Origin: Bdellovibrionales bacterium RIFCSPHIGHO2_01_FULL_40_29
Lineage (GTDB): Bacteria > Bdellovibrionota > Bdellovibrionia > Bdellovibrionales > Bdellovibrionaceae
Direction: 5' to 3'
Length of the DNA: 64,000 bases
Assembly: GCA_001771815.1 (NCBI GenBank)
Contig: MEPU01000002.1
Span: 62,001 to 126,000 of the forward strand
The notes under the pieces are model-generated. The model saw only the letters and a program-made list of their open reading frames with translations. It was not told where the DNA came from and made no database searches. The position numbers were made by a program, and so were the translations under genes. Positions within the stretch are counted from its first letter, which is position 1. Each line of letters begins with the position of its first letter. Shown piece after piece: positions 1 to 55,063 of the stretch.

Positions 1-1484
1 AAGGCCACTGGAGCCGCAGGGAATTTACCCGATTTTGAATACGACAGAACTTGGTAATCTGCTGATCGTGTGAGTTTTTTACTGACTCGTCCGCCAAGTT
101 CTAATGTATTTTTATCGGTTGCTTCCACTGCTGATATAAATTCAAAAGTGTGAATAAAGTCTTTTCCAATAGCCGGCTTCAATCCCCAATCTTTGAATAA
201 CTGAGCTATGGTATTTGTATAAATAATCTCTTTGGCAGATCCTGTCGCTCGCCCCTCCATCGATTCATCAGCCAGATATTTAACGATGGCTTTGATATCA
301 TCTTGATTGATCGATTCACTTAACTTTAATGGATTTTGAGTCTCTTTCATTTTTAGAGCGGGCGGTAAATTCAAAGCCTTTCGAGCTTCATTATCATTCC
401 AATCAGCTAAATAAATTTGGCTTTCACCTTTTTCATTTCGATGGGACCATGTTAACTTTTGACCATCTGGTGAAAAACTGGCTAATCCATCAAAACCATC
501 CGAGAATGTAATTCGAACAGGTTTTTGCTTTCCTTCAGTATCAACAATAAAAAGCTCAAAATTAGCATAACCTAAAATAGATGACCCAAAAATAATATAA
601 TCACCTGATGGATGAAAATACGGAGCCCATGACATGGATCCCAATTGAGTGATCTGCTTTTGATTACTTCCATCCACATTCATCGTGTAGATTTCAGCCT
701 TTGAGCCATCAGCACTAAATCGACGCCATGTGATCTTTTTACCATCGGCACTGAAAAAAGGTCCACCGTCATACCCAGAAGACGTTGTCAAACGCTTCAC
801 TTGAGAACCGTCGGCCTTCATTATATAAATATCCATTGCATAAGAGGGATCACGATCAAAGATTTTTTTCTCTTCATCACTTAATTTTTCAGTATATGCG
901 GAACGATTGGAAGCAAAGGCAATCCACTGACCATCTGGAGAATACGAACCTTCGGCGTCATACCCTTTGGCGCGTGTTAACTGTTTGACCTTCTGACCAT
1001 GAAGATCAGATTCAAAAATATCAAACTCTTCATCAAAACTCCAAGAGTAGCGTCCCTTGACAGGTTTTGCGCGCTCTTCATACTCAGCTTTAACTTTATC
1101 TTTTATCTTAGGATCAAGATGTGTCGATGACCACATGACTTTTTTTCCAGCGGGATGAATCCAACCACAGGTGGTTTTACCTTGCCCTGTTGAAACACGT
1201 TGAGTTTGGCCATTCTGTAAATCAACAATATACATCTGATAAAATGGATTTCCGAGTTCTCGCTCGGATTGAAAGATCATTTTTTGACCATCTTGACTGA
1301 AGTACCCTTCACCAGATCTGGGACCAACAAAGGTGATCTGTTTTGAATTCGTATAAAATGTATTCTGAGTGCTGACAATAGATGTTGGTATCAGATTTTT
1401 TTCAACTTGAGCTGTTGATTTTAAAGAAGACAAGATGACCACAAAAGAAATGCAGGCTATGACTAAAGAGTAGATTTTTTTCAT
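1..1484 (-). CDS. TolB-like beta-propeller / M28-type peptidase, 3' part missing
   Basis: Reading left from ATG 1482-1484, the frame stays open for 494 codons and runs off the window, so the C-terminus is missing. I translated it by hand. Residues 1-25 form a signal peptide. Residues about 50-400 contain repeated blades of the type SPDGQWIAFASNR, FSADGKKITW and FSPDGQKLTWS, typical of PD40/TolB-like propellers. From about residue 405 the text (YLADESMEGRATGSAKE) resembles the N-terminal segment of M28 aminopeptidases that precedes a PA-domain insert. The zinc ligands would lie outside the window, so peptidase activity is inferred. It is divergent from the methyltransferase gene and their 5' ends almost touch. 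Likely periplasmic. Confidence 0.75.
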   Translation of the reverse strand, partial: MKKIYSLVIACISFVVILSSLKSTAQVEKNLIPTSIVSTQNTFYTNSKQITFVGPRSGEGYFSQDGQKMIFQSERELGNPFYQMYIVDLQNGQTQRVSTGQGKTTCGWIHPAGKKVMWSSTHLDPKIKDKVKAEYEERAKPVKGRYSWSFDEEFDIFESDLHGQKVKQLTRAKGYDAEGSYSPDGQWIAFASNRSAYTEKLSDEEKKIFDRDPSYAMDIYIMKADGSQVKRLTTSSGYDGGPFFSADGKKITWRRFSADGSKAEIYTMNVDGSNQKQITQLGSMSWAPYFHPSGDYIIFGSSILGYANFELFIVDTEGKQKPVRITFSDGFDGLASFSPDGQKLTWSHRNEKGESQIYLADWNDNEARKALNLPPALKMKETQNPLKLSESINQDDIKAIVKYLADESMEGRATGSAKEIIYTNTIAQLFKDWGLKPAIGKDFIHTFEFISAVEATDKNTLELGGRVSKKLTRSADYQVLSYSKSGKFPAAPVA

Positions 1485-1512: not shown

Positions 1513-2604
1513 ATGTCAATTGAAAGCTGCCGCTATTTATCTGTTTGCCAGGGGTGCCATTTTGAAAAAATGGCCTACTCAGAGCAGCTTGAAATTAAAA
1601 AAAATCACCTCGCTGAGCTATTCCAAAATCATCAACTCCAACCACCCCCTATTGCCATCAGAAGCCTTGGAGAAAACTATTTAAGACAGCGCTTTGACTT
1701 CACTATCCACAATGGACGAATGGGGCTCTATAGTGCCGACAGAGAGATTATCGATATTGAATCCTGCCAGCAAGTGGCTTCAGAGCTGCAAAAAGCTTTT
1801 AGTGATTTTAGATCCATTCCATTTCCTATCAAAAAAGGCTCCGTTCGCTTGCGTGTTGGTCCCAGTGGATTACGAGGCGTCTGGTTGGATTTTGCAAATA
1901 CGGATATTAAAAACTTACTTGATGAAAAAAACACCTTAGAACGTCTTTGGAAGCTCGGCTTCCATATCGAAATTGGACAAAAAGGGAAAGTTCCCATTCC
2001 AGGAACAGAAAGCTATAAACTCTCAGCCCCACAACCCCACGTATGGTTTAAAACCCAAGACATCCCGTTGAAAAGTTTAATTTTAAATTTTACTCAACCC
2101 TCTTGGAACACAGCCGATGCATTAACTGAAATTATTTTAAAGTGGGTGAGCACTCTAGGAACTCAGCTGACTGTTGCTGAATTCGGTAGCGGCATTGGAC
2201 AATTCACCCTGCCATTATTAGCAAGTGGCCACAATGTCGATTCGTTTGAATCACATATTTTAGCCACCGAGTTATTACGTCTCAATGCCACAGACTCTCA
2301 GTTGGATAAAAACTTGACGATTTATTGCGATGACTATCATAAAAAACCCCTGCCTTCTGATTTATTTTATGATGTGGCTGTCGTGAATCCACCACGTTCA
2401 GGCTTGCTTCAGTTTAGCGATCAACTGATCCGTGTTAAAACAAAAAATGTTATTTATATTTCGTGCTTTCCAGAAAGCCTTATTGAAGATCTTGAAAAAT
2501 TATTGGCCAGTGGTTATCAAATAAAAGAAATCCAGATTGTGGATCAATTCCCTCAAACCAAACACTATGAAACATGTGTCCTACTCGAGCGAATAGATTT
2601 TTAG
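1513..2604 (+). CDS. RumA/RlmC-RlmD family rRNA (uracil-C5) methyltransferase
   Basis: This SAM-dependent enzyme probably makes 5-methyluridine in 23S rRNA. The N-terminus has the cysteine pattern C6-x5-C12-x2-C15 expected for the [4Fe-4S] cluster, with a further cysteine near residue 87. The SAM-binding motif is EFGSGIGQF. The family motif VNPPRSGL is followed by the catalytic cysteine in YISCFPESL and the usual C-terminal QFPQTKHYETCVLLER. At 363 residues it lacks the N-terminal TRAM domain of RlmD and is closer to RlmC in length. I chose ATG 1513 over ATG 1483 because GAGG lies just upstream and the cysteine cluster begins at once. The family is clear; the exact target uridine is not. Confidence 0.85.
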   Translation: MSIESCRYLSVCQGCHFEKMAYSEQLEIKKNHLAELFQNHQLQPPPIAIRSLGENYLRQRFDFTIHNGRMGLYSADREIIDIESCQQVASELQKAFSDFRSIPFPIKKGSVRLRVGPSGLRGVWLDFANTDIKNLLDEKNTLERLWKLGFHIEIGQKGKVPIPGTESYKLSAPQPHVWFKTQDIPLKSLILNFTQPSWNTADALTEIILKWVSTLGTQLTVAEFGSGIGQFTLPLLASGHNVDSFESHILATELLRLNATDSQLDKNLTIYCDDYHKKPLPSDLFYDVAVVNPPRSGLLQFSDQLIRVKTKNVIYISCFPESLIEDLEKLLASGYQIKEIQIVDQFPQTKHYETCVLLERIDF

Positions 2605-3180
2605 CCCTGAAATCTCACCTGCTAAATCACGCGAAAGAATCAGCGATATCAATGGCAACACCAGAACACCCGTCATCAAAATAAGCGTCGTTCGAACAAT
2701 AACTTTAAAAACATAACTGAATTGAAAGCGCTGAAGTGGTTCACCCAAACGCAAGTCACAGGTCCATTCACCAACAGAAGCGCCAATAAAGGCTCGCATA
2801 AAAATCAAATAAGTCCATAAACTCAAAACAAATAAAATTCCCATTGAAAAAATAAAACTTTGATCTTTGAAAAACAGACTCAGCATCGATTGCGGAGAGG
2901 CCTTCATCATAAACGATGAGAGAACTAGAAAAAAACAAGACATGGATACCAAAATCAACCCGTCAATACCGGCCGAAAACCAAGTCCACAATGCCAGTTT
3001 TAAACCTGATCTTTTCTTGGATCCATTGTGAAAACTTGTCCCTTCCATGATATCAGATTCTAAAAAATCAAGTCTCTGGAATAGATTCTCCCGCACCACA
3101 GGACGCGGAGCCTTTGTTGGCTCACGCTCCGGATGTGGTAAAGGAATTTCAGAAGACTGTGGCGGTTGAAATGAATCCAT
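2581..3180 (-). CDS. RDD family membrane protein
   Basis: A 199-residue protein with a proline-rich cytoplasmic N-terminus (about 60 residues) followed by three or four hydrophobic segments. The stretch RAFIGASVGEWTCDLRLGEP matches the conserved region of RDD-domain proteins, normally G-x-T-x-G-K-x2-x2-L. RDD proteins are poorly characterised; some are thought to transport compatible solutes or ions. The gene starts 3 nt after the stop of the upstream cysteine-rich protein gene, so it is very probably the last gene of that operon. Its 3' end overlaps the convergent methyltransferase gene by 24 nt. Function is not assignable beyond the family. Confidence 0.7.
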   Translation of the reverse strand: MDSFQPPQSSEIPLPHPEREPTKAPRPVVRENLFQRLDFLESDIMEGTSFHNGSKKRSGLKLALWTWFSAGIDGLILVSMSCFFLVLSSFMMKASPQSMLSLFFKDQSFIFSMGILFVLSLWTYLIFMRAFIGASVGEWTCDLRLGEPLQRFQFSYVFKVIVRTTLILMTGVLVLPLISLILSRDLAGEISGLKIYSLE

Positions 3181-3183
3181 GGA

Positions 3184-5355
3184 TTACCTTTGTATTCCTG
3201 TTTTTGTATCTACCGTCGGAGCCTGCTCTGGACAATTAATTGGATTAGTCACCTTTGAACCATCCCAACATGTGAATTGCTGTGCCGGACATTTTGAAAG
3301 ATCATCGACTTTGGTCACGTTATCCCAACATGTGTACAAGCTACCCGTTGTTGTTGAGCTCGTTCCACATGTGCAAGCGGCAACATTGGTAATTGTTTGC
3401 CCTGGTGGACAACTTGCACAACCACAAATCCCAGTAGACAGCATAGATTGCGGTGATACACAGGTTTGACCACAAGGTGGAGTCGTCCCATTCGGACATT
3501 TATCGCCTGCCGCGTTCAATTTTGGCATTTTAGGAGAGAATAACTTGTACATGGCCCAGATGGCGACACCAGCAAAAGCAAATGGTGCTACGACCTTAAT
3601 GCCTTTCCACAGTTTTTCCCAAAAACTTGGTTCTTTTTTCTCTGGCATTTTTCTGCCATCAGAACATTGAGTATAGGCTGCACCTTCTACTCCAGTGATC
3701 AATTTACCTGGTTTTCCATTATCACAAAGCTCTGCCCCATCTGATGGTGCCTTTGTTGGAGGCTCTGCTGCAGGAGGTTCTGTCGCAACTGGTGGCTCTG
3801 GTGCTGGAGGTGCTTTACATTGATCACCTGGGCTAACACTGACTCCCGTGGCAGGTGCTGGACAAGCGCACTTCAATGTTGATCTATCAATTGTTGCCCC
3901 AGCTGGACATTTGTTTTGAAAAAACTCGGCCACGAATAAAAATCGCCGTTGCAATTGATCGCAGGCTTGCCAAAAATTCGTCTCGTGAGAATTGCGGCGA
4001 TCTGAGCTGGCTTTACAGCTTGCTGTCGCATGCGCAATGTCAGAATCAAATTGATTTTTGATTTTGATGACTTCATCCAGCGTAGCATCATCAATGATTC
4101 CATTCGTATAAAGACTTTTTCCGCTGAATTTTAGCATTCCTTCTAGGAAACTCTCGGTCTGTGCAAAACTAGGTTCTTGCATTTTTTTGGTATCAGCTTC
4201 CAAATTCACATCAAGCATATTCTCAGGAGCATAACGACCTGATTTTTTATTAGGATCTTTTAAAAACTGAACCTCATTGCCTAAGTGATTATTTCCAGTT
4301 CCGTTAATCGTCTCACAAGGCCCATTAAAGTGAGTTGCAACTTGAAAACTGGCGCTGCGTCCGGGTGTTATACAAATGGGCTCTCCCCTCGGAGTACCAA
4401 AGACAATGGGATTACATGCTAATTTGCTCTCACCGCAGAAGGTATTGGCACGCTTTACGATATCAATCTCTCGATATTCCGCTTTGATATTTTTATGATC
4501 ACAAACAGTGGAACTGTACGAGGTCACATAACCTGCAACTAAACAGTCATTTGATGAAACATCTTCTGCGGCAGCAAAAACTTTAGTGCCTCTTGCTCTT
4601 GTATCAACTCTTCGATCTGTTGCGGATTTCTCAGTCGGTTTCGCATCCACATTGGGAATTAAAAATTTTAAAATCCCTTCAAGCGCTGATGTTTTCTTTG
4701 GCTTTACTTTTTCTTTTTGAATTTCGGTTAATACTTTCTTCGCATCACTCCATAACAATCGCATATGAATCATGTACTGAGCACGCTCTTGCGGAGTCAT
4801 GGCTTTCCAGAGGGCTTTGGTTATTTTTGGATAAGAGTTAAACACTTTCGAGGCCGCTACTGGTGGTTTAACTTCAGTTTGTTTACGCAGAACTTGGTCG
4901 CCGGCTATAATACGATCAAACATATCATTAAAATTAATCAGATCAATTTCAGTCAAGTTGGTATTTTGAAACTTAACATATTTATCTTTGTCTCCAAACC
5001 ATTGAACATTTAAAAGTTGACCATTTTGAGTGATACGCACATTGGGAATTTCAATTCCATCTGTCCCTTTTACTGAGGTCACTTCAAACTTTGGCATCAA
5101 GACATTCTTATACCTAGTCATCACGGGTTCGATTTGTGATCGAATCCGCTGCGGATAAAGATGCTTTGTGTTTTGATAAAACTCACCCACGGTGATTTGC
5201 TTATGTAATCCCATCTGAACTAAAGCATTGACCACTTGCTGTTTTGATATTTTTTCAGCTTCGCGGCCCATCGCAACGGGGGACATAACCAAAGTAAATA
5301 GCGACAGACACGCCGCTATCCAATTCATTTTAAGTTTTAAATTCCACAATCCCAT
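3184..5355 (-). CDS. Cysteine-rich exported protein, tandem paralogue B
   Basis: About 723 residues, not a family I can name. A signal peptide (MNWIAACLSLFTLVMSPVAMG) is followed by an N-terminal domain shared with the upstream gene (SKQQ, GEFY, SVKGTDGIEIPNV, WFGDKDKY). A cysteine core at about residues 271-326 starts CLVAGYV and ends CNPIVFGTPRGEPICI. It is followed by a helical domain with ACDQLQRRFLF, a Pro/Ala-rich linker, one membrane segment (about 588-606) and a cysteine-rich tail of about 115 residues. ATG 5379 overlaps the upstream TAA (TAATG), but I prefer ATG 5355 because GAGG sits 5 nt before it. The paralogy implies an old tandem duplication. An envelope or surface role is inferred. 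Confidence 0.8.
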   Translation of the reverse strand: MGLWNLKLKMNWIAACLSLFTLVMSPVAMGREAEKISKQQVVNALVQMGLHKQITVGEFYQNTKHLYPQRIRSQIEPVMTRYKNVLMPKFEVTSVKGTDGIEIPNVRITQNGQLLNVQWFGDKDKYVKFQNTNLTEIDLINFNDMFDRIIAGDQVLRKQTEVKPPVAASKVFNSYPKITKALWKAMTPQERAQYMIHMRLLWSDAKKVLTEIQKEKVKPKKTSALEGILKFLIPNVDAKPTEKSATDRRVDTRARGTKVFAAAEDVSSNDCLVAGYVTSYSSTVCDHKNIKAEYREIDIVKRANTFCGESKLACNPIVFGTPRGEPICITPGRSASFQVATHFNGPCETINGTGNNHLGNEVQFLKDPNKKSGRYAPENMLDVNLEADTKKMQEPSFAQTESFLEGMLKFSGKSLYTNGIIDDATLDEVIKIKNQFDSDIAHATASCKASSDRRNSHETNFWQACDQLQRRFLFVAEFFQNKCPAGATIDRSTLKCACPAPATGVSVSPGDQCKAPPAPEPPVATEPPAAEPPTKAPSDGAELCDNGKPGKLITGVEGAAYTQCSDGRKMPEKKEPSFWEKLWKGIKVVAPFAFAGVAIWAMYKLFSPKMPKLNAAGDKCPNGTTPPCGQTCVSPQSMLSTGICGCASCPPGQTITNVAACTCGTSSTTTGSLYTCWDNVTKVDDLSKCPAQQFTCWDGSKVTNPINCPEQAPTVDTKTGIQR

Positions 5356-5378
5356 AAATACCTCATTCAATAACTTCA

Positions 5379-7808
5379 TTATTGGTTCACTTCTGTTGGA
5401 GCACCACCACTGCAATTTCCGGACGGACAATTGTCTCCACTGCCGCCTTCACTTGGTGCTGGGCAGCCAGCAAGAGGCTCGTAAGATCCATTAGTGCATT
5501 TCGGACACTGTGATAAATTGTTGTTAGGTGCTGCATTTCCATTTGGACAAATCACAGGCTGAACAACATTCGTGCATTGGCAAGTCGATTGATTGTAAAT
5601 TTGTTGTCCTGGAGTACACGAATTTGAAACCGGACACGCACAGGCTGGATATTTTCCAACTTTAGGTGGTCGGCAACGCTTTACAGGAGGTTTAGGACTG
5701 CACGTGCATGACACTGGATTCAAAGTTGATCCTGATTTGCAACTGATTTTACAAATCGGTGGGCTCGGAGGTACCACGACTGGAGGCTGTTTTGGTTTTT
5801 TGTTTTTATGAAAAAGAGCCACCAGTGCTAAAATTCCTAAACCCCCGAGAAGCCATTTCCATAAATCACTTTTCTCACAAAGACGTTCGACATCTTCAGG
5901 TTTCGTTGACTGGGGAAGCATTTTTCCTTCACCCTTAACACACTGACATTGAACGCCATCGCCATCTTGAATTATATTTGTTCCCGATGGACATGATTTA
6001 TCAATGACTGGTGCTGGAGATTCTTTTTCAACAGCCACCGCTGGTGGTACAACTGCAGCGTTCGATTTACACTGTCCGCCAAAATCTGCCGTCGATCCAT
6101 CGGCATTACATTTACAAAGGCCTTTGCCTTTAGGATCAGTCAATTGCCGTTTATTCAATTCTGTTTTTGTCAGGCTCTTACCCTCAGTATCCGTCGCAAT
6201 CACACCCGATTGCACCATAGATTCATCTTTAGCATAAGCTCCAATATATGTGGAATCGCTTGGACATGCTTTTGAGCGAATTTCAGAAATAAATTTTTCT
6301 GTAAATAACCAACGTCGATGAAGTTGATCACAGGCTGGTTTTTGCTTTGTATCCACATGCAATTTTTCAATATTTTCACGACATGCAGCAATTGCGCGAT
6401 TAGTTTCTTGTTCATAGACACTTTGAATCTGAACAAGTTCTTTATCTAAATCTTCGTCCCAAACGCCTTTTGTAAAAATATCAAATAGTTTTTTATTACG
6501 TCCGTTATCACTTTGTTTGAGCATGCCTTCAATAAAATCTTTGGTGTACTGAAACTCAGACAATTTCTGATCGTCTTCAATTATTTTCTGCCGGGCTGAA
6601 TCCGGCATGACGTTTTCATAATTTTTAGAATTGAACTCCATCACCATTTTTGCAGATGATAATGGACTAGCTAGATCGCAGAGGCCATTTCGTGTGGTGG
6701 CATCCTGGAACTCGGTTTTAATTTGATCAATACAAAGGGGTTCTCCTTTGGGAAAACTGTATTGCATCGGATTACAGGCCCGCGCAGTGCTTCCATGGGT
6801 TTTAATACAGGTATTATTGGCTTCGCGCACGTAGCTTGGAGCATTGGTTCCTTCATATAATCCAAGAGCCGTATCCAATGAACAAACCTTTCGCCCCGAA
6901 CCGTGAACATTGCTACCAACACCCTCTGCACCAACATAGCCCGCAACAATACAGGCTTTGGCAGATTCTGGAATATTAACCGTTTTTCCACTTCGAGTTG
7001 TCACCGTTGTGTTTTTTGACTTGATGGCTGTTCGTTCTAATTTTTTTGCATTGACGACTGGCTTCTGCGCGTAAGCTTCAGCACCCATTAAAAGCTCTAA
7101 AAAAGTCTTTGCTGCTTTTTGAGGTTCTAGATGTTTAGTCACTTCAAGCGCCGACATGTACATCAACCGCATTTTAACGATGTAACTGGCCCGCTGCTGA
7201 AGTGTCATCGATTTCCATAAATAAGGCGTCACCCGCGGAAAACCCTCAAAACGTCCCAAATCCGCTGTCATTTTTTTCTGATTCGGAGTCATATTTTTAG
7301 AAGTCGGTTTTCCGTTGGCTTGACTTTGTAACGAATCAAATTCTTTCTTCAAACGAATATCATTGGCTGTGACTCGCGCAAACAAATCGCTGGGTCGTTC
7401 AAGATCAGCCATTGATAAAACAGCATTATTTAGTTTAGCCCATTTGTCCTTTTCGCCGTAAAACTGAATCGTTTGAATTTTTCCATTCTGGGATAACTGC
7501 AACATGGGAACTTCAGTCCCATTTGTTGTCTTTGATGAAGACACTGTCATCTGCGGCATTTCTAAGTTCTTATTTTGCTGAACAAAGGCTTCAATTTCTT
7601 TGTACATATAACCTGGATAATAGGCCTTGGACTTGTTCCAAAACTCTCCGAGAGTTGTCTTTTTATTCAAACCAAATTCATTAATATACTGCTGTAGTTG
7701 TTGTTTTGATAAGTTCTCAGCCTCGTAACCGAAGGCTACCGGCGAAATTGTCATCGTCAACCAGGACAGATGGACAGTCATCCATTTTATGAGCTTCAAT
7801 ACTCTCAT
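5379..7808 (-). CDS. Cysteine-rich exported protein, tandem paralogue A
   Basis: About 809 residues, same architecture as the downstream paralogue: signal peptide ending near AFG-YEAE; N-terminal domain (SKQQLQQY, GEFWNKSKAYYPG, FYGEKDKW); a helical stretch LWKSMTLQQRASYIVKMRL; cysteine core at about 286-360 from CIVAGYV to CNPMQYSFPKGEPLCI; ACDQLHRRWLF; membrane segment at about 648-666 (WLLGGLGILALVALF); and a 140-residue tail with many Cys, Pro, Asn and Gly. ATG 7808 is chosen because AGGGG lies 6 nt upstream. It is first in an apparent three-gene operon with the paralogue and the RDD protein. Even-numbered cysteines suggest disulfides if the tail is outside the cytoplasm. Function unknown. 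Confidence 0.8.
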   Translation of the reverse strand: MRVLKLIKWMTVHLSWLTMTISPVAFGYEAENLSKQQLQQYINEFGLNKKTTLGEFWNKSKAYYPGYMYKEIEAFVQQNKNLEMPQMTVSSSKTTNGTEVPMLQLSQNGKIQTIQFYGEKDKWAKLNNAVLSMADLERPSDLFARVTANDIRLKKEFDSLQSQANGKPTSKNMTPNQKKMTADLGRFEGFPRVTPYLWKSMTLQQRASYIVKMRLMYMSALEVTKHLEPQKAAKTFLELLMGAEAYAQKPVVNAKKLERTAIKSKNTTVTTRSGKTVNIPESAKACIVAGYVGAEGVGSNVHGSGRKVCSLDTALGLYEGTNAPSYVREANNTCIKTHGSTARACNPMQYSFPKGEPLCIDQIKTEFQDATTRNGLCDLASPLSSAKMVMEFNSKNYENVMPDSARQKIIEDDQKLSEFQYTKDFIEGMLKQSDNGRNKKLFDIFTKGVWDEDLDKELVQIQSVYEQETNRAIAACRENIEKLHVDTKQKPACDQLHRRWLFTEKFISEIRSKACPSDSTYIGAYAKDESMVQSGVIATDTEGKSLTKTELNKRQLTDPKGKGLCKCNADGSTADFGGQCKSNAAVVPPAVAVEKESPAPVIDKSCPSGTNIIQDGDGVQCQCVKGEGKMLPQSTKPEDVERLCEKSDLWKWLLGGLGILALVALFHKNKKPKQPPVVVPPSPPICKISCKSGSTLNPVSCTCSPKPPVKRCRPPKVGKYPACACPVSNSCTPGQQIYNQSTCQCTNVVQPVICPNGNAAPNNNLSQCPKCTNGSYEPLAGCPAPSEGGSGDNCPSGNCSGGAPTEVNQ

Positions 7809-7938
7809 CAGAACCCCTTTTGCTTCGGGCATTTCACTTCATTTATCTCAAAACACATCACTTTTAAATATCGGCGTATCATATTAAGAGCTTAAGTGAA
7901 TTACCCTAAATCATTATGTAACGTTTAAATTTGAGACA

Positions 7939-8652
7939 TTATTCCGACTGACCCCGGCTTTTGAGCCAACGACCAAGATCTTGTCTAAATTGTCCATCCA
8001 ATTCTTCGAACTCGACCCGAGCCCCAGAATCCAGATTTTCAACAACTTTTGCTTTAACCTCGATAGGTGAAATTTCAGGAAACTTAAGAACAACAATTTC
8101 ATTTTTTCGAAAACTTCCGGGCTGTTCAAATGAAATCCGAGAACCTGTTTTAGAAAGCGATTCGGTGATCGCTTTTTGTCCCGCACAAACAACAGATGTT
8201 CGAATATCGACTCGCCGAGTGTTGGTCAGCCAACTGGCTCTTCGATCCAAATAAGGGAATCTAAAATAAAATGAAATCACCAACACACTGACTGTGCAAA
8301 TAATGGCCAAGAGCGAAAATATTTTGAAAAAAACAGGATCTATGGAATTCGTATCCACATGATACAAGCGATAAGCATTGATACATAGAATAAGAATCAA
8401 AGTAAAAATGGCAACAGACCAAGATAGTTTATGCGGACGAAACAATAAAATTCCAGTCAGAAACAGAAGGCCCAACCAAATCCAATCCATGGCGGGAATG
8501 GTTTGCAAAAAAGGACCAAAAACGCCGGAGTCATACCAATTTTCAACACCGGAACCCGCAAAACTTATAAATACATTTCCTATCGGTGCGAGCAAAAAAA
8601 GAATTGCTAAAAAATAAACGCCGAAGGGTTTCTTTAAAACTGACATACTCAT
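7939..8652 (-). CDS. Membrane protein with C-terminal PilZ domain
   Basis: 237 residues. Four or more hydrophobic segments fill residues 1-130. The C-terminal third looks like PilZ: an arginine-bearing stretch (YLDRRASWLTNTRR), then SLSKTGSRISFE in the position of the D/N-x-S-x2-G motif, then beta-strand-like EVKAKVVENLDSGARVEFEEL. PilZ domains bind cyclic di-GMP, so this is probably a membrane effector of that messenger. The canonical RxxxR is imperfect, so binding is not certain. GGGGG lies 7 nt before the ATG. It lies upstream on the same strand as the cysteine-rich operon, 130 nt away, and could be cotranscribed with it. Confidence 0.65.
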   Translation of the reverse strand: MSMSVLKKPFGVYFLAILFLLAPIGNVFISFAGSGVENWYDSGVFGPFLQTIPAMDWIWLGLLFLTGILLFRPHKLSWSVAIFTLILILCINAYRLYHVDTNSIDPVFFKIFSLLAIICTVSVLVISFYFRFPYLDRRASWLTNTRRVDIRTSVVCAGQKAITESLSKTGSRISFEQPGSFRKNEIVVLKFPEISPIEVKAKVVENLDSGARVEFEELDGQFRQDLGRWLKSRGQSE

Positions 8653-27684: not shown

Positions 27685-28923
27685 CTATTTTTTTACAGGG
27701 ACGTTGCTATTCCCTGGAGACACTTGTCCAGCACCAGATGGCTGCTTGGCAATGGCCTCATAACGTTTAAGCACAGTTTGCAATTGCGGGATTGCTACCG
27801 CACATGTCGTCACGATATCTTTTTTAATGCGATCTGAATTTTTTCGTTTTGTTCCTTGAGCATCTTTATAAATCAAACGATTCTTCTCCGACTGAGCCTC
27901 GTCGCAAAGTTTGTAAAAACTTGATAAATACTGAGACAGAAGCTCAGGCTTTGCTTTTAATAACACCAGCGTATTTTCTAAATACCGATCATTTTTAGTT
28001 TGATTCTTGCAATTCAAGGTAGCCGAAACCGAATTTGCAATACAAACAGGCTTTGCTTGTTCAAGACATTGCTGGGAATCTGCTTTACTGACAGAGCATT
28101 CACCTTCGAATCCAAAGAGCAGCGGATTACACATCACTTCAGAATTTTCACACTTAAATGTATTGCGATTAAATGCCATATTCAGAAGATCGCTTGAAGG
28201 AATTTCTCGCGGGGCTCTGCAAACCACATCTTCAATTACAAAACCAGCATACATACAAGCAGAATATGAGTACGAAGGCTCTCTGTCTTTGATCTCAGAT
28301 TCTTGAAATTGTCTGTGCTCAGACACTTTCACTGCACGAGCAACTGTTTTCTTGGGCAATAGAGAAGACTGTTGAACTTTTGGTTTTGCGCCGGTGATTG
28401 TTTGAAAGATCAACTCTTGATTGTACATCATATGACTTATCAATGAATGAACCCCTAAACCCTTTGCTTTGGATTCAATACGGGTTTTGAGAGCCTCAAA
28501 CTGCAGTATCAGTTTTTGATTCTCGGTGGATTGGGGTTGTCCTTTTAACTTATGAGCCTCGGCAATCAAAAGTGTTAAAGCCATTGTCGCATGCTTTGTG
28601 TCCCGCGTACGCTCAAAAAGTTCTGCCGATTCAACAGCCGCAATTTTATTATCCACATTTAAAGCCAGGGCTTCGCGCGCAATCAGAGTCCCCAACATCA
28701 GCAACCTGGTATCATGGTACTGCGAAAATAATTCTGATGGTCCATTTAAAGAAGCCATGATTTCTCGAAGCTCCAATATCATTTTTTTCTGGCTGGCCTG
28801 ATCCAGATTTTTAAAGTCGGTTGCAATCCAATCAACCCGAGGTTGATTCATGTCATTTGCTATTCCACGTGTTGAAAACAAAAACACCAGACTTAATAAA
28901 AAAAAGACTTTATATAATTTCAT
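27685..28923 (-). CDS. Cysteine-core exported protein, short paralogue C
   Basis: 412 residues. A signal peptide (YKVFFLLSLVFLFSTRGIA) is followed by a helical domain with DQASQKKMILELREIMASL, which parallels LQQRASYIVKMRLMYMSAL of the 5.4-7.8 kb protein. The cysteine core at about 222-289 has CMYAGFV, then CNPLLFGFEGEC, then AKPVCI, the same order as in the two large paralogues at 3.2-7.8 kb. It lacks their membrane segment and cysteine-rich tail, so it may be fully periplasmic or secreted. The start codon lies inside a strong AU-rich hairpin (see the separate entry). Function unknown; the family relation is my comparison by eye. Confidence 0.72.
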   Translation of the reverse strand: MKLYKVFFLLSLVFLFSTRGIANDMNQPRVDWIATDFKNLDQASQKKMILELREIMASLNGPSELFSQYHDTRLLMLGTLIAREALALNVDNKIAAVESAELFERTRDTKHATMALTLLIAEAHKLKGQPQSTENQKLILQFEALKTRIESKAKGLGVHSLISHMMYNQELIFQTITGAKPKVQQSSLLPKKTVARAVKVSEHRQFQESEIKDREPSYSYSACMYAGFVIEDVVCRAPREIPSSDLLNMAFNRNTFKCENSEVMCNPLLFGFEGECSVSKADSQQCLEQAKPVCIANSVSATLNCKNQTKNDRYLENTLVLLKAKPELLSQYLSSFYKLCDEAQSEKNRLIYKDAQGTKRKNSDRIKKDIVTTCAVAIPQLQTVLKRYEAIAKQPSGAGQVSPGNSNVPVKK

Positions 28924-53572: not shown

Positions 53573-55063
53573 CTAAAAACATTTTTGAGTACAAGATTCA
53601 CCTGCGAGTGTCACCCGAGGTGCCATGCATTCCGTAGTCCCTTTGTGGCGAAGAAATCCCCACTCTGTGCTTTTGGGTTTAATTGATTTGTTCAGAAAAT
53701 ACGCCAAACAGGATTGCTTACCCATCTCGACGAAAGCTGTTCTCATTTTTGAGGTTTCGTCTAAGTAATCTTTTATAACATATTTGTTGATACCTATGCC
53801 ATTTTTTGATGGACTGCTTTGGGTGACTCCAATGTCAAAATTTTTGTAATTCAGTGATCCACACTGCTCAACCGATGACAGCAATCCAAGACCAAAAGGA
53901 TCAGCCCCAATACGATCAACCGCAACGACATGTCCTTTTACACCAACGATATCACCGGGCTGAATAGAATGGGTTTTTGAGACTGAAATATTTTCAAAAC
54001 ACGAAAATCCAGACAATTCAGCGTCAATAAATTTTGCCGAATTCTGCCGAATGTAAATAGGTTTATTTTCTAAACTGGGCTTGTAACGAAGGCCGGCTAC
54101 TGCGATCGCTGAAGACACATAAGCTGAGCAGTCAACACCAAGCACTTCCGTTCCCGACCCCGCATTCGCAAAAAAATTGATCGCATTTCCAGAAATCGCC
54201 GGAGAACCACCGTAGTCATAGATCAATGGTGTCTCGCGCACTTCTTTGCACTGACTTTCAGAAGCGATCCCACGAATATAATAATGAGTGTTTTGAACAG
54301 ACGCTAAATTAGAAATGACTCTTTTGCCACCTATGCCATCACTATGAGTTCCCACTCGCTCAATTCCCACAACACTTGATGTTGACCGATCCATCTCTGG
54401 TAAATCAAGCACTCGACAGCTTTGATAGGCCGTCGAGAAAACCCTATCGATCCCCTTGCTCATCGGAATAATTTGAGCCTGATCTCCGGGCCTAGGAACT
54501 GGCGTTGGTGTTGGATTTGGCATTGGTGCGGGAGACGGCGTCGCCTCACATCCTAATGATAACTCTGTCGCTGCTTTCTTAATCGATTCAACTTTTAACG
54601 AAATTTTTTGAGAGGTCACAACTGTTTGAGCTTCAGTACGGTCTTCCATTTCATATTCAATTAACTTTTGGATTTGTTCTTTCCAAGTGATGTTGGGGTT
54701 ACTTAATGACTCCTCCAACATTAGATCAACCAATTGATGTAAATCAATTCTGAGCGCACTCACTTGTTTTTGCTGAGCGACAGAATCCACTTTGTTTTCT
54801 ATTTCATCTATTTTTTTATCCAAAGCACTTTTCAAATCATTTGCATCTGGAATAATCTGTTCTTGATCAATCAAGCTGTAAAAGGCATCAAACACTTTAC
54901 TTTGAACATTATTGCATCCCAAGGAATTTGAAATATCTGTGCTGGCTTGATCAATAGACTTGTAGTAGCCCGGAGAACAACTCGTAAATATGATCAGCGC
55001 TGACATCGCTAAAATTGATAAAGTTCCTAGTTTCCGCATCTGGCTTGAAATTAACATATCCAT
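53573..55063 (-). CDS. Lipoprotein with NlpC/P60- or CHAP-like cysteine peptidase domain
   Basis: 496 residues. Lipobox IIFTSC-SPG near residue 29. A helical, coiled-coil-prone region follows (to about 170), then a proline-rich linker (PSPAPMPNPTPTPVPRPG) and a C-terminal domain. That domain has LGVDCSAYVSSAIAVAGLRY, with a D-C-S-x-Y pattern like the nucleophile motif of NlpC/P60 enzymes, and SIQPGDIVGVKGHVVAVDRI with the matching histidine. Such enzymes cut peptidoglycan peptides or related amides. The domain is extended by inserts, so activity is inferred. The start is ATG 55063 or one of two later in-frame ATGs. Confidence 0.65.
   Translation of the reverse strand: MDMLISSQMRKLGTLSILAMSALIIFTSCSPGYYKSIDQASTDISNSLGCNNVQSKVFDAFYSLIDQEQIIPDANDLKSALDKKIDEIENKVDSVAQQKQVSALRIDLHQLVDLMLEESLSNPNITWKEQIQKLIEYEMEDRTEAQTVVTSQKISLKVESIKKAATELSLGCEATPSPAPMPNPTPTPVPRPGDQAQIIPMSKGIDRVFSTAYQSCRVLDLPEMDRSTSSVVGIERVGTHSDGIGGKRVISNLASVQNTHYYIRGIASESQCKEVRETPLIYDYGGSPAISGNAINFFANAGSGTEVLGVDCSAYVSSAIAVAGLRYKPSLENKPIYIRQNSAKFIDAELSGFSCFENISVSKTHSIQPGDIVGVKGHVVAVDRIGADPFGLGLLSSVEQCGSLNYKNFDIGVTQSSPSKNGIGINKYVIKDYLDETSKMRTAFVEMGKQSCLAYFLNKSIKPKSTEWGFLRHKGTTECMAPRVTLAGESCTQKCF

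Follow-up and report, generated by a model that had tools for sequence, protein, structure and literature searches.

A cysteine module in exported proteins of Bdellovibrionota and its putative membrane-anchored form encoded beside an RDD-like gene

Predatory Bdellovibrionota export many proteins that no database names. L,D-transpeptidases are an enzyme class known to modify the wall of the prey. Wnt proteins are cysteine-rich and the Lipocone CapCone-2 is found in Bdellovibrionota, which is why the Lipocones were considered for the cysteine module described here. CapCone-2 comprises secreted two-gene systems of Bdellovibrionota, concentrated in predatory bacteria, and Lipocones have a helical core and an active-site histidine; the same paper gives the function of RDD as unknown (PMC12419801). 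How does the present locus compare with these systems? Set beside CapCone-2 by description and conserved residues, the module has cysteines, a glycine and Asn-Pro but no invariant His or Asp, and the Lipocone reading is not favoured, as the residues conserved in an alignment of 71 modules do not fit it. As for the L,D-transpeptidases (PF03734, PF13645), several members in the phylum have the module towards the N-terminus and YkuD towards the C-terminus, whereas most module proteins, including A and B, the two studied here, have no YkuD, and the module lies outside the YkuD match. The product of the third gene probably belongs with the RDD family (PF06271) as a divergent relative; A and B are unrelated to RDD in sequence, so the RDD match is uninformative about them.

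The window, that is, the whole 64,000-nucleotide stretch of DNA analysed, encodes proteins A and B as listed in Table 1. The stop codon of A (5381-5379) and the ATG of B (5379-5377) overlap as TAATG, which confirms the coupling given in the original prediction; the start of A chosen there, at 7808, is a plausible alternative. Are the two proteins truly paralogues? BLASTP aligns them with 28% identity over 765 columns (E 7e-73), which is not chance, and the proposed tandem paralogy with a common domain order is borne out. Both read signal peptide, N-terminal domain, cysteine core, hydrophobic segment and cysteine-rich tail, and the translations of both ORFs contain CxVAGYV, ACNPxxF/Y, GEPxCI and ACDQLxRRxLF in identical order. 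In A, the signal peptide (SPVAFG) and the N-terminal domain are followed by a helix motif, MTxxQRA..MR, and then by the six-cysteine core; after it come a helical pair with C484 and ACDQLHRRWLF, a hydrophobic segment at about 657-675 and the cysteine-rich tail, which ends EGGxGxN..GG, an EGG..GG ending that is also found in single-copy Bdellovibrio orthologues. The earlier statement that the proteins belong to no named family agrees with the searches: nothing passed the cut-off for A or B in Pfam, NCBIfam, PHROGs or PADLOC, Pfam found no YkuD domain in either, and profile searches of PDB sequences gave nothing below E 0.1. Hirudin heads the Pfam rows with 19.3 bits (cut-off 25) at 614-653, away from the core; it was rejected as chance, as were the sub-threshold rows for Choline_kinase and DUF4473 in Pfam and RecX in NCBIfam.

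Table 1. Features of the window that bear on the A-B-RDD locus and the cysteine module.
Feature	Position	Strand	Remarks
RDD-like integral membrane protein	2581..3180	-	3 nt downstream of B
Protein B	3184..5379	-	ORF, 731 aa
Six-cysteine core of B	4294..4560	-	CLVAGYV..C..C..CNPIVFG..C..C
Protein A	5379..7832	-	ORF, 817 aa counted from first ATG
Six-cysteine core of A	6657..6968	-	CIVAGYV..C..C..CNPMQY..C..C
Membrane protein with C-terminal PilZ domain	7939..8652	-	directly upstream of A, same strand
Third exported module protein	27685..28923	-	412 aa; module profile E 2.3e-15; unlinked to A-B-RDD

The window is part of a Bdellovibrionota genome. The names of relatives found by sequence are Bdellovibrio or Pseudobdellovibrionaceae; one of these relatives is Bdellovibrio sp. 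qaytius (CP025734.1; Bdellovibrionota, Pseudobdellovibrionaceae). A single-protein scan of genome contigs gave no match, and viral contigs, plasmids and phages contained no relatives (plasmids and phages by weak single-protein searches), so phage or plasmid cargo is not indicated at that sensitivity. In a tree of 32 sequences, all A and B proteins of the window's genus fall into one clade (99/98) apart from the single-copy sequences, so the duplication falls within the lineage of the genus; in B. qaytius and a sister, A clusters with B, which suggests a conversion or a second duplication there. The gene order A-B-RDD is kept in all ten genomes of the genus inspected, the window included. Bdellovibrio and other genera of the family have a single copy, as a rule followed by RDD, and an RDD gene lies within about 3 kb of an A/B orthologue in 24 related genomes. 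The grouping of A, B and RDD in the original prediction is supported as a conserved gene unit. The locus often begins with the gene for the PilZ membrane protein, so the term three-protein system leaves out a component in part of the family. In the window, the product of this gene matches PilZ (PF07238) with 29.5 bits against a cut-off of 22.5 (E 9.6e-7); the gene adjoins A in most of the window's genus (g1), in two of the four Bdellovibrio (g4) loci inspected (L041, L045) and in g10, and is absent from others. The name RDD also needs qualification: the copy in the window reaches 13.8 bits against the Pfam cut-off of 24.1, whereas orthologues at the same locus in four genomes exceed it (G133, 30.5; G139, 29.5; G141, 29.0; G168, 25.7 bits). 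The B gene of one genome (G180, L034; 10071-12221) has one in-frame TAA, and its listed ORF is without a signal peptide, which may reflect a sequencing error or decay.

The core shared by A and B recurs in other exported proteins as a module with the pattern CxxAG[WYF]..C..C..CNPxx[FY]G..C..C, that is, six conserved cysteines; a helical pair, C...(A)CxxLxxR, often comes after it. Across 71 aligned modules the near-invariant positions are the cysteines (C1 97%, C2 99%, C3 83%, C4 and C5 100%), the glycine after C1xx[AG] (97%), the N-P of CNP (94/99%) and the G after F/Y (96%). Of 60 distant members, 28 have C..xCxxLxxR behind the core (such as YDACDDLHRR in L132, ACEVLRRR in L129 and YSACDYLLDR in L135), compared with four among 205 background segments and an expectation of 5.1 from shuffling, so the ACDQLxRRxLF element belongs to the module; judged by sequence, the module has six cysteines in its core, to which the helical pair adds two in many members. 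The helix motif before the core, MTxxQRAxY..MR, is present in some distant members too, and unrelated background ORFs gave no match to it at E < 0.05, the background rows below this value being of the A/B family. The 'new cysteine core' of the original prediction is therefore right as to the lack of a named family and too narrow in its extent, as core and ACDQL together form a phylum-wide exported module. Could this module be a new enzyme, such as a wall hydrolase with an unrecognised active site? The Asn-Pro of the CNP motif is conserved and the module is attached to wall enzymes; however, the 71 sequences share no invariant residue with an acidic, basic or hydroxyl side chain, Asp, Glu, His and Ser included, and no significant fold match to an enzyme was obtained, and we consider an enzyme very unlikely.

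How widespread is the module? A search with a profile of the core only, proposed together with the original prediction, gave matches in 148 of 359 genomes, from 55 of 178 genera of Bdellovibrionota. With a broader profile and E <= 1e-4 the figures were 168 of 349 genomes and 68 of 177 genera, counts that depend on the genome set and on draft quality, with kinship labels assigned by the search tool. The genes that carry it differ; their exported products range from about 380 to 1490 aa, and the place of the module within them varies. At E <= 1e-4, three module proteins are encoded in the window's genome, all inside the window. Relatives of the third one, of 387-459 aa, occur in the genus and in Bdellovibrio (L091, L092, L126, L149). 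A short G-x-R or G-x-K closes many module proteins (GGVR, AGVR, AGTR, SAVGIK, FGIR; e.g. L041, L092, L105, L110, L140) and might act in sorting or processing. The literature search, confined to open-licence papers, yielded no description of the module, a silence that says little about novelty; terms matching the A/B locus were absent from papers on the proteomics of B. bacteriovorus predation and on proteins essential for predation.

Which domains accompany the module? Pfam convincingly recognised a single one in 40 distant module proteins, YkuD/YkuD_2, in four of them (L104, L135, L142 and L123, from families f5, f12 and f22). YkuD_2 exceeds its cut-off of 27 bits in L104 (74.7 bits, E 7.6e-21), L135 (89.5 bits, E 2.1e-25) and L142 (83.6 bits, E 1.4e-23), which are predicted L,D-transpeptidases by this domain; the match of L123 (E 1.4e-4) is just under the cut-off, and G105 has a further case of module and YkuD in one protein. 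YkuD_2 matches in eight genomes (over the cut-off or with neighbours) number 15, in seven of them, and four fusions among 60 proteins are thus very unlikely by chance (binomial about 5e-8 at an assumed 3,300 genes per genome, which is a guide only as the members are related). The window's genome has no YkuD_2 match. Because the invariant residues are Cys, Gly and Asn-Pro and the sole recognised partner is a peptidoglycan cross-linker, the module is read here as a putative non-catalytic binding unit; only four of the 40 module proteins scanned carry YkuD, so the link to the wall rests on a minority. The same fusions would also suit predator equipment that is delivered to the prey and acts in the prey periplasm, with A and B as one membrane-held version. 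Such a role agrees with the spread of the module in a phylum of predatory bacteria (in the Bdellovibrionota genomes searched) and with the many lineage-specific module proteins of 380-1490 aa, but A and B have a membrane segment and are encoded next to RDD and, in many cases, PilZ, and the literature search found no expression data; delivery to prey seems improbable to us.

AlphaFold models of A and B were built with the same alignment members, from shallow alignments of 17 sequences. Model A (817 aa) has a mean pLDDT of 60.8, highest in the core, and model B (452 aa, signal peptide and tail removed) one of 71.2, with the N-terminal domain at about 80-86 and the core at 86-90; over both models the core lies at about 85-90. 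The order of elements agrees (N-terminal helices, small beta sheet, pre-core helix, core), and in both models long helices after the core bear the last two cysteines. Foldseek returned no match at E <= 0.001 for either model, both being of moderate confidence, and a missing fold match does not show a new fold. In VIA, the best row for model A is the Helicobacter BabA adhesin (Z 3.7, rmsd 3.9, 106 aligned), a weak likeness of a helical part that is far under the significance level of the tool and absent for model B, whose own best row has Z 4.6 (rmsd 2.2, 41 aligned); both are 'ordinary' by the scale of the tool. Rows for BabA, Ttg2D/MlaC-like and Brucella PhiA folds are weak, lie within the ordinary range and differ between the two models, and therefore no fold is claimed.

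Where would the two proteins reside? In nearly all members the C-terminal third contains a hydrophobic segment with a Lys-rich stretch behind it, an arrangement that points to anchoring in the inner membrane and suggests that the tail is inside; the Lys-rich stretch is clearest in A and in Bdellovibrio and less clear in B, where the charge bias around the segment is weak. The surface structure envisaged in the original prediction is not supported by this arrangement. The tail complicates the picture. In B, 12 tail cysteines keep their alignment columns in 9-10 of 10 orthologues, and many of them recur in A tails. So many conserved cysteines fit badly in the reducing cytoplasm, and the topology assumed here may be wrong; the tail could bind metal in the cytoplasm or be oxidised outside, both of which are possible. 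If the hydrophobic segment is not a stop-transfer sequence, A and B could be surface-exposed or secreted adhesin-like proteins with the tail oxidised outside. Fixed cysteine columns are what folded disulfide domains have, tail motifs such as CPPGQ..N..TC.C look extracellular, and the non-significant BabA row of model A belongs on the same side. The segment and Lys-rich stretch speak against exposure, however, as does the failure to recover BabA with the better model B, and Bdellovibrio orthologues do without the cysteine-rich tail; taken together, an adhesin-like role appears unlikely. The Bdellovibrio tails have two cysteines and end GGVR, so the cysteine-rich tail, which had been correctly noted in both A and B, is special to one genus, and it cannot be the core function.

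What, then, might the locus do? The module, its phylum-wide spread, the paralogy, the RDD linkage, the YkuD fusions elsewhere and the export signal are shown by the sequences. We tentatively favour a reading, which we hold to be quite possible, in which A and B are membrane-anchored envelope proteins with a non-catalytic module that binds the wall or another part of the envelope, and form a complex with the RDD protein. The signal peptide would send the N-terminal domain and the module to the periplasm, where the module, stabilised by disulfides of inferred pairing, could serve to bind, or to target the protein to, the cell wall or some other polymer of the envelope. The hydrophobic segment would anchor A and B in the inner membrane beside the RDD protein, and the complex might link the state of the wall or envelope to the membrane; the neighbouring PilZ protein could place it under the control of c-di-GMP. 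One gene would have become two in the window's genus, A and B then acting together as a pair. Against this stand the RDD genes located elsewhere, away from the orthologue, in at least four relatives (G195, G160, G132, G161) and the absence of PilZ from many. A and B are probably the membrane-anchored form of the module, working with RDD. A wider proposal, which we rate as somewhat unlikely, is that the eight-cysteine module founds a new superfamily of domains in Bdellovibrionota and serves to dock exported proteins, L,D-transpeptidases included, on the wall of predator or prey, with A/B-RDD as a membrane-anchored receptor branch. One recognisable module unites dozens of unnamed exported proteins from 68 genera and gives a handle for their naming, structure and function, as a candidate building block of the cell envelope or of prey-handling machinery. 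The YkuD fusions make the idea of wall recognition directly testable with one purified domain, and the gene pair with RDD offers a case for studying the role of RDD genetically in B. bacteriovorus.

Some further genes lie near the locus. An RNA methyltransferase-like gene on the opposite strand and an M28 peptidase with PD40 and PDZ domains often follow it. A large protein with PD40 repeats, M28 peptidase and PDZ is encoded at 3-1484 (minus strand) of the window and also at 13467-16391 of L032, and it is near the locus in many relatives. In Bdellovibrio, a protein with a weak NlpC/P60 match (L041, 11216-12784) is encoded a few kb from the A orthologue; an exported cysteine-containing protein of the window (53573-55063, minus strand) resembles it by eye.
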